Below, piece by piece: positions 18,334-20,390 of a stretch of 64,000 nucleotides of DNA. The DNA is from an uncultured Bacteroidales bacterium (GTDB lineage Bacteria; Bacteroidota; Bacteroidia; Bacteroidales; UBA932), in NCBI GenBank assembly GCA_946415475.1, contig CAMKSQ010000001.1, positions 124,001 to 188,000 on the forward strand, given 5' to 3'. Within the stretch, counting starts at the first letter, position 1; every line of letters starts with the position of its first letter. The position numbers and the translations under genes are program-made. A model generated the notes under the pieces. The model had not been told where the DNA came from, searched no databases, and worked only from the letters and a program-made list of their open reading frames with translations.

Positions 18334-18801
18334 TTACAAATACAGCGCATGGGTATTTTTGATTTCGTCCATCACGAAGGAGGAGAGGATGGAGCCGATG
18401 GCGCTGATGTTGCCCAGGACGTTGATGATGAACTCGTTGTAGTACTTCATATCGGGCGCGTAAATCTTTAACAGATAGTCGTATTCGCCGGAAATGTTGT
18501 AGCATTCCACCACCTGGGGGATGTCCCGGATTACGGAGATGAAGTCCCGGGCTACGGCGCGGTTCATCTGCTTGAGCTTCACGGAACAGAATACGGTGAA
18601 TCCCCTACCCAGCTTTTCTGCATCCAGCACGGCCACATACTTTTTGATGAAGCCGCCCTTTTCCAGTCGCTTCATGCGTTCGAAAACGGGCGTGGTGGAA
18701 AGGTTCACGCGCGCAGCCAGCTCTTTTGTAGTAAGTCTGGCGTTCTCCTGCAACGCCCGCAGGATTTGCAAATCCACCGCATCCAATAGCACTTCACTCA
18801 T
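18334..18801 (-). CDS. Lrp/AsnC family transcriptional regulator
   Basis: LDAVDLQILRALQENARLTTKELAARVNLSTTPVFERMKRLEKGGFIKKY. Confidence 0.95.
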   Translation of the reverse strand: MSEVLLDAVDLQILRALQENARLTTKELAARVNLSTTPVFERMKRLEKGGFIKKYVAVLDAEKLGRGFTVFCSVKLKQMNRAVARDFISVIRDIPQVVECYNISGEYDYLLKIYAPDMKYYNEFIINVLGNISAIGSILSSFVMDEIKNTHALYL

Positions 18802-18903: not shown

Positions 18904-18934
18904 TTGTACGTTTTTTCCAATCACGGTATCTTTG
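18904..18934 (+). promoter_or_regulatory. Promoter for metY operon: TTG-N20-TATCTTTG
   Basis: TTG 18904-18906, TATCTTTG 18927-18934. Confidence 0.65.
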
Positions 18935-18938
18935 CAAT

Positions 18939-19082
18939 CCGAAGGGGGTATAGGTACCCAAACCGTCGCTTCGCGACCCCTCCCAAATCGCGACACGCCG
19001 TCTAACGACGTTGCGGCTGTGGGCCCCTCCCTCTTACACGGCCGAGGGTGGCCATGGGTTTGGGTACCTACACCCCCTTCGG
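18939..19082. repeat. 144-bp near-palindromic element with 26-bp terminal inverted repeats and internal hairpins
   Basis: CCGAAGGGGGTATAGGTACCCAAACC (18939-18964) vs GGTTTGGGTACCTACACCCCCTTCGG (19057-19082), 25/26 complementary. Confidence 0.95.
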
Positions 19083-19109
19083 AAAAACAATAAGACTATA
19101 GACTAGACC

Positions 19110-20390
19110 ATGGCAAAGATTGACACATTATGCGTACACGCCGGATACAGCCCCAAGAAGGGCGAACCGCGGCAGCTCCCCATCATCCAGAGCACAACCT
19201 TTAAATATGAGACATCGGACCAGATGGGCCGCCTGTTCGACCTGGAAGAGTCCGGTTATTTCTATACCCGTTTGCAGAACCCGACGGTAGATGCCGTGGC
19301 GGCGCAAATTTGCACCTTGGAAGGCGGCGTGGGCGCTATCCTCACCTCCTCCGGCCAGGCGGCCAATCTCTTTGCCTGCCTGAACATCGCAGGTGCGGGC
19401 GACCACATCATCGCCGCAAACAACATCTACGGCGGCACTTTCAACCTGCTGGGCGTTACGCTGGCCAAATTCGGCATCGAAGTCAGTTTTATCAAGGCCG
19501 ATGCCACCGACAGCGAGATCCAGGCCGCCATCCGGCCCAACACCAAACTCGTTTTTGGCGAAACCCTCTCCAACCCCGGCGTAGAGGTGCTGGACATTGC
19601 CCGTTGGGCCGCCGTCGCACACAAAAACGGCCTGCCGCTGGTAATCGACAATACCTTTGCCACGCCTGTCCTGTGCCGTCCGTTTGAATGGGGGGCCGAT
19701 ATCGTCACACATTCCACCACCAAATATATAGACGGGCATGGAACCAGCGTGGGCGGCGCCGTGGTGGACAGCGGCAACTTCCCTTGGGAGCAATACGCCG
19801 AAAAATTCCCCGGCCTAACTACGCCGGACGAATCCTATCACGGCCTCACCTATACCAAGAAATTCGGAAAGGCTGCGTTTATCACCAAGGCCGTCACGCA
19901 CCTGATGCGGGACCTGGGTAGCACGCAAAGCCCCCAGAATGCCTTCTATCTGCACCTGGGCCTGCAGACGCTGCACCTCAGAATGCCGCGCCACAGCAGC
20001 AGCGCCCTTCAGGTGGCCCGCTGGCTGGAGAACTGCCCGGACGTGGCCTGGGTACACTACCCCGGCCTGGAAAGCGACCCGCACCACAACCTGGCGCTCA
20101 AATACCTGCCGGACGGCTGCAGCGGCGTGCTGTGCTTCGGCCTTAAAGGCGGCCGCGCGTTCGACAACCGCTTCCTGGATGCCCTGAAACTGACCACCAT
20201 CGAAACGCATGTGGCCGATTGTCACACCTGCGTGCTGCATCCGGCATCGCACACGCACCGGCAGCTCTCCGACGAGCAGTTGAAAGCCGCCGGTATCGCC
20301 CCGGACCTTATCCGTTTCAGCGTGGGCCTGGAAGCCCCCGAAGACATTATTGCAGACCTTGAACAGGCCCTGGCCGCAGCGAAAGCATGA
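19110..20390 (+). CDS. metY: O-acetylhomoserine sulfhydrylase/aminocarboxypropyltransferase
   Basis: PLP Cys/Met metabolism family: THSTTKYIDGHGTSVGGAVVDSG, LSNPGVEVLDI, SVGLEAPEDIIADLEQAL. Confidence 0.92.
   Translation: MAKIDTLCVHAGYSPKKGEPRQLPIIQSTTFKYETSDQMGRLFDLEESGYFYTRLQNPTVDAVAAQICTLEGGVGAILTSSGQAANLFACLNIAGAGDHIIAANNIYGGTFNLLGVTLAKFGIEVSFIKADATDSEIQAAIRPNTKLVFGETLSNPGVEVLDIARWAAVAHKNGLPLVIDNTFATPVLCRPFEWGADIVTHSTTKYIDGHGTSVGGAVVDSGNFPWEQYAEKFPGLTTPDESYHGLTYTKKFGKAAFITKAVTHLMRDLGSTQSPQNAFYLHLGLQTLHLRMPRHSSSALQVARWLENCPDVAWVHYPGLESDPHHNLALKYLPDGCSGVLCFGLKGGRAFDNRFLDALKLTTIETHVADCHTCVLHPASHTHRQLSDEQLKAAGIAPDLIRFSVGLEAPEDIIADLEQALAAAKA

Follow-up and report, generated by a model that had tools for sequence, protein, structure and literature searches.

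The palindrome in front of metY in the window, as we call the whole 64-kb stretch of DNA that was analysed, is very probably one copy of a small, non-coding, mobile palindromic repeat, a grading that covers its family identity and mobility alone. So far as sampled, the repeat is confined to one genus of uncultured Bacteroidales. Our best explanation of the element as a whole is a mobile cloverleaf core whose outer stem would be remade at each insertion, and we give this a probability of about 0.6.

The palindrome upstream of metY

The top inverted repeat of the window was found at positions 18938-19083, with a score of 24 compared with 14 for the runners-up. Twenty order-1 shuffled windows gave inverted-repeat scores of 14 or less, and the palindrome was confirmed as real and far above chance. 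Where the sequence-only reading had placed arms of 26 nt with 25 of 26 positions complementary, we found 27 bp per arm with one A/C mismatch. These arms form the outer stem P1 (left arm 18938-18964, right arm 19057-19083, both recorded without a strand), which is unique to the metY site and whose inner ends are AAACC on the left and GGTTT on the right. RNA folding of 18930-19110 gave -83.7 kcal/mol versus -55.1 ± 4.4 kcal/mol for shuffled sequences (z -6.5).

Between the arms lies a conserved core of 92 nt (18965-19056) in which the minus strand is the structured one. Three inner hairpins had been drawn here from the sequence alone. The first, P2 (GTCGC-TTC-GCGAC, 18965-18977), was found as drawn, whereas the other two were better drawn as P3 at 18982-19023, with a variable interior and a closure that is always CCC/GGG, and P4 at 19037-19056, which reads CATGGCC-ACCCTC-GGCCGTG on the minus strand. 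All three are assigned to that strand. The linker at 19024-19036 reads TAAGAGGGAGGGG on the minus strand, and its GAGGG and the CCCTC loop of P4 are candidates for a possible pseudoknot.

A promoter-like pair on the plus strand (18904-18934) precedes the element; the sister species G005 has retained it. It consists of TTG at 18904-18906 and, after a gap of 20 nt, TATCTTTG at 18927-18934. The right end of the element is 27 nt upstream of the start of metY (O-acetylhomoserine sulfhydrylase family, 19110-20390, plus strand), which is followed by metX and thrA. Both the promoter-like sequence and the 27-nt gap had already been pointed out from the letters of the window and were found again here.

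Spread of the repeat

The 144 bp of the element matched more than 20 places in its own genome (G000). When 41 genomes were searched, the element was found in 18 of the 25 from the genus (its own genome included) and in none of the 16 from other families. With a covariance model built from the copies, matches were obtained in 50 of the 61 genomes of the genus, at most 40 per genome; the genus figure comes from this covariance-model search, and the absence outside the family from the search of 41 genomes. A pattern scan of GTDB genomes gave at least 119 stretches that carry the element, and all 80 of the titles listed were uncultured Bacteroidales or Bacteroidia assemblies, most of them named from ruminants. 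The number of distinct copies collected was 117.

The sequence-only reading had left two explanations in competition, a regulatory leader and a mobile repeat. The many copies, mostly within unrelated genes, bore out the second of these; most showed no link to Met genes, and among the genomes sampled they occurred in this genus only. In this large genus of gut bacteria a single genome holds as many as about 40 such short palindromes, and many are in frame in housekeeping genes. A limited literature search found no earlier description of such elements in Bacteroidales.

Cloverleaf fold and structured strand

In a minus-strand alignment of 48 copies, the order of the cloverleaf was P1, P4, the GAGGGAGGGG linker, P3, the second GGGAGGGG and P2. 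The search pattern had preset part of P4 and the first linker, and had left the second GGGAGGGG, P2, the variable part of P3 and P1 free. The conserved core is about 60-115 nt long and contains three hairpins, which together with the outer stem make a cloverleaf of four helices. Both sides had changed in 17 of 28 pairs, and 96.1% of the cells were paired, versus 30-45% when the partners were slid. Double-changed cells numbered 223, compared with 67 in shuffles, and the observed covariation score was matched by none of 500 shuffles. For the outer stem P1, pairing was 97% and double changes were seen in 9 of the 10 scored pairs. The covariation supports the predicted four-helix cloverleaf.

Arms of at least 16 nt were present in 114 of the 117 copies, with 106 mismatches in a total of 2924 arm pairs. 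Sixty of the 106 were A/C, and in one sense only: the A was on the P2-side arm and the C on the P4-side arm. The arm mismatches had peaks at 11 and 15 nt from the core. The closing pair of P3 showed the same bias (A-T 73, A-C 33, G-T 0). An A/C mismatch on one strand is a G.U wobble only when read on the opposite strand, here the minus strand. Since the mismatches would be tolerated as wobbles on the minus strand alone, this strand is the structured one, antisense to the metY transcript. The minus strand also folded better in 112 of the 117 copies. Judged from these patterns, the functional single strand appears to be the one opposite to the metY transcript.

Insertion inside genes

In an independent sample of 69 loci, 46 had their copy within an ORF that continued across it and extended for at least 30 codons on each side. 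The in-frame hosts in G000 are a YgiQ-like radical SAM protein, a YggS-like protein, an aminotransferase, MurB, TruB, two M20 peptidases, TilS, TrmB, an ABC ATPase, TruA, RibF, CysS and AtpG, and these in-frame copies contain no stop codon. In-frame copies add some 30-50 residues to the host protein. Hosts differ in the frame and in the orientation in which they read a given core, so that no fixed peptide is selected. Stops in the cores over six frames were fewer than in dinucleotide shuffles (1.83 versus 2.78 ± 0.12). Since the element is read through by host genes in both orientations, a role of the cloverleaf in the host mRNA is improbable.

Other short in-frame inserts were observed in the same loops (L094 in atpG, L125 in murB, L061 and others). 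They encode TPDQVGGDR- or SVIPSEVEES-like peptides, which suggests more small intragenic repeats in this genus.

Identical cores on different outer stems

Unrelated stems of 18-27 bp, only about 40-60% alike position by position, were found on cores with 38-92 identical nt. Most copies have the inner stem AAACC/GGTTT, and only the 5 inner bp are common to the stems.

A second core class, class 2 (GGAACATTTGCCCGTACAGGGTCGCGAAGCGACGTGGA), has one hairpin in common with class 1 and was found in G000 at cysS (L025), an M20 peptidase gene (L026) and atpG (L027). These three copies have identical 38-nt loops and unrelated stems, and each is absent from a close relative. L026 and L027 have exactly 52 identical nt, comprising the loop and about 8 bp of inner stem, after which the arms are unrelated. 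Both inserts are absent from G005, which keeps the left-arm sequence at the M20 gene and the right-arm sequence in atpG. For L228 of G019, signal-peptide coding DNA of the next gene makes up the right arm, of which the left arm is an inverted copy; the right-arm sequence is also present in species without the element, most clearly in G223. In murB, one arm codes for a conserved L-T-P.

The exception to unrelated stems is a set of seven G000 copies (L010-L016, on contigs C59, C38, C11, C10, C5, C3 and C2), which share a stem of about 22 bp. They also share part of their outer flanks and so, in contrast to the rest of the copies, form part of a composite repeat of greater length. The stems as a whole share a loose consensus, GG..TAT......AAACC, beyond what is expected for random host DNA.

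At the intergenic sites L238, L325, L367 and L377, relatives have neither the core nor either of the arms. Since spacers turn over fast, these four sites neither confirm nor refute a host template. Three versions of a protein-level survey of the intragenic copies gave mixed results or were too strict, with a native arm at some sites and neither arm at others. Deletion scars account, or may account, for some of the empty sites (L283 in G079, L054 in G000), and that in atpG may be such a scar instead. The core is flipped between the same arms at L008/L230 and L298/L299, and core flips were seen at a glycosyltransferase site. We do not claim a fixed rule for the native arm, which is the P4-side arm at L228, murB and L026, is the opposite one at atpG, and is obscured by the core flips at the glycosyltransferase site. 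L240/L287, cysS (L025/L448) and ribF were dropped as clean native-arm cases owing to remnant-like or loosely aligned sequence. No target-site duplication was seen at the empty and filled pairs, whose flanks are diverged, and none had been noticed at metY from the sequence alone.

Origin of the outer stem

One arm is host sequence at a few sites (L228, murB, L026 and atpG), which suggests that the stem is rebuilt. The core would carry along about 5-8 bp of inner stem; the remaining 20 bp or so would not be inherited but synthesised at insertion. For this, adjoining host DNA would be copied in inverted orientation, giving the second arm. The data may fit either of two geometries, one in which a strand end snaps back and self-primes synthesis, and one in which a hairpin cap is opened off-centre. 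Elements that keep the frame would survive within genes; others would be found in spacers, the metY leader among them. That this is mobile DNA without ends of its own, each copy receiving from the host a templated palindromic stem of about 20 bp as an inverted copy of the adjoining DNA, we hold to be evenly balanced. If true, it would be an insertion mode that we know from no described element, and stems made from host DNA at each insertion would allow the origin of genomic palindromes to be approached at the level of sequence.

Several observations run counter to a rebuilt stem. The mismatch peaks at 11 and 15 nt and the loose consensus are not predicted by a pure host-copy model, the relatives at four intergenic sites lack both arms, atpG keeps the opposite arm, and seven copies share one stem. 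Alternatively, the stem may be inherited with the element and diverge fast, remaining palindromic through repeated correction of one arm from the other by template switching in the hairpin, with the cores of a genome homogenised by gene conversion. The loose consensus and the intergenic copies that bring both arms are consistent with inheritance; so are the metY orthologues of G000 and G005, which differ by compensatory stem changes and in P3, as if stem and core evolved separately, and the YggS copies, which keep their stem and differ in P3. However, the three class-2 copies of G000, with one 38-nt loop on unrelated stems and each absent from a close relative, argue against it, as do the two of them in which one arm is the host sequence of the sister species, and the arm of L228 that is host coding DNA. 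Because of the mismatch peaks, the consensus, the intergenic sites lacking both arms, the mixed survey and the scars and flips, we regard a core that moves and a stem made anew as only slightly favoured on the sequences compared, and an inherited, corrected stem as a doubtful alternative that still deserves weight.

Comparison with known repeats and candidate mobilising enzymes

By analogy, the element would work most like the Rickettsia palindromic elements. According to a summary (PMC10969869, on Ogata et al. 2000, 2002), these are palindromes of about 100-150 bp in several families, inserted between genes as well as in frame within unrelated ones, without a transposase of their own and described as encoding a conserved peptide. 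The present element is likewise in-frame, intragenic and non-autonomous, with 46 of 69 copies in a read-through ORF. It differs in that one conserved peptide is absent, the core being read in various frames and on both strands, in an outer stem that is different in almost all copies, and in its phylum.

REPINs are short, palindromic, non-coding mobile repeats with a proposed intermediate in the form of a single-stranded hairpin or clover; their ends are strongly conserved, and they sit beside a RAYT gene, outside genes (PMC3116915). The element is also short, palindromic and non-coding, with a similar size and shape, but here the ends vary and the RAYT loci examined carry no copy. MITEs are small, dispersed, non-autonomous elements with terminal inverted repeats, and their ends are inherited. 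Like MITEs, the element is small, dispersed and non-autonomous and has inverted-repeat ends; unlike them, it has no constant terminal inverted repeat (the seven G000 copies excepted), no target-site duplication was seen in the diverged flanks, and no parent insertion sequence was found. The small dispersed repeats (SDR) of Nostoc are cyanobacterial, probably mobile, and have a shared structure supported by compensatory changes. They may resemble the element in these respects, and are much smaller (21-27 nt). The element is placed among the small palindromic mobile repeats, with the variable outer stem as its distinguishing trait.

An ordinary MITE or REPIN moved whole by a transposase in trans, e.g. 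a RAYT (Y1 tyrosine transposase), would be small, palindromic, non-coding and dispersed as the element is. RAYT-like Y1 transposases are common across the genus, G000 has four Y1_Tnp genes, and the seven copies with the same stem are as such a mode would have them. However, inherited ends would be expected, and here they differ in nearly every copy. The element was absent from the flanks of the RAYT loci L430-L443 and L445 (in G000, G005, G016, G019, G003 and G015), some of which carry other palindromes, and G014 has 11 copies yet no Y1_Tnp match in an assembly that is 70% complete. We therefore consider transport of this kind unlikely, and a RAYT partner was rejected on account of the empty flanks. 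A resident RVT_1 reverse transcriptase was also rejected, since no RVT_1 gene was found in G000 or G016, which are copy-rich and 96% and 98% complete. No mobilising enzyme was found among the RVT_1 and RAYT candidates examined. The palindromes at some of the RAYT-like loci are of AATAATCCTCGTTCG and AATCCTCGG types, and these genes and palindromes are likely a REP-RAYT system.

The metY site in relatives

G005, the sister species, carries the element in the same position before metY; its stem has compensatory changes and its P3 is different. In eleven other members of the genus, metY lacks the element and has other upstream neighbours, and among the metY loci read it was in front of the gene only in G000 and G005. 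An Rfam scan of the element gave no match at the gathering threshold, the best weak one having E=0.21.

The other explanation offered from the sequence alone, a structured leader or riboswitch controlling methionine and threonine synthesis, is highly improbable and was rejected: although the element begins just past a promoter-like site, stops 27 nt short of metY and is kept there in G005 with compensatory stem changes, most copies are unconnected with Met genes, the metY of eleven other genus members lacks it, known structured RNA features are absent both as an Rfam match and as conservation before the same gene beyond G000 and G005, the wobble-tolerant strand is antisense to the mRNA, and an Lrp/AsnC-type regulator gene sits divergently next door. 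The hairpin may have an effect on metY expression as a by-product. The case is a warning that a transposed repeat can pass for a striking structured leader. The neighbouring Lrp/AsnC-type gene (18334-18801, minus strand), which scored under the NCBIfam equivalog cut-offs, is divergent from metY-metX-thrA and is likely their ordinary candidate regulator.
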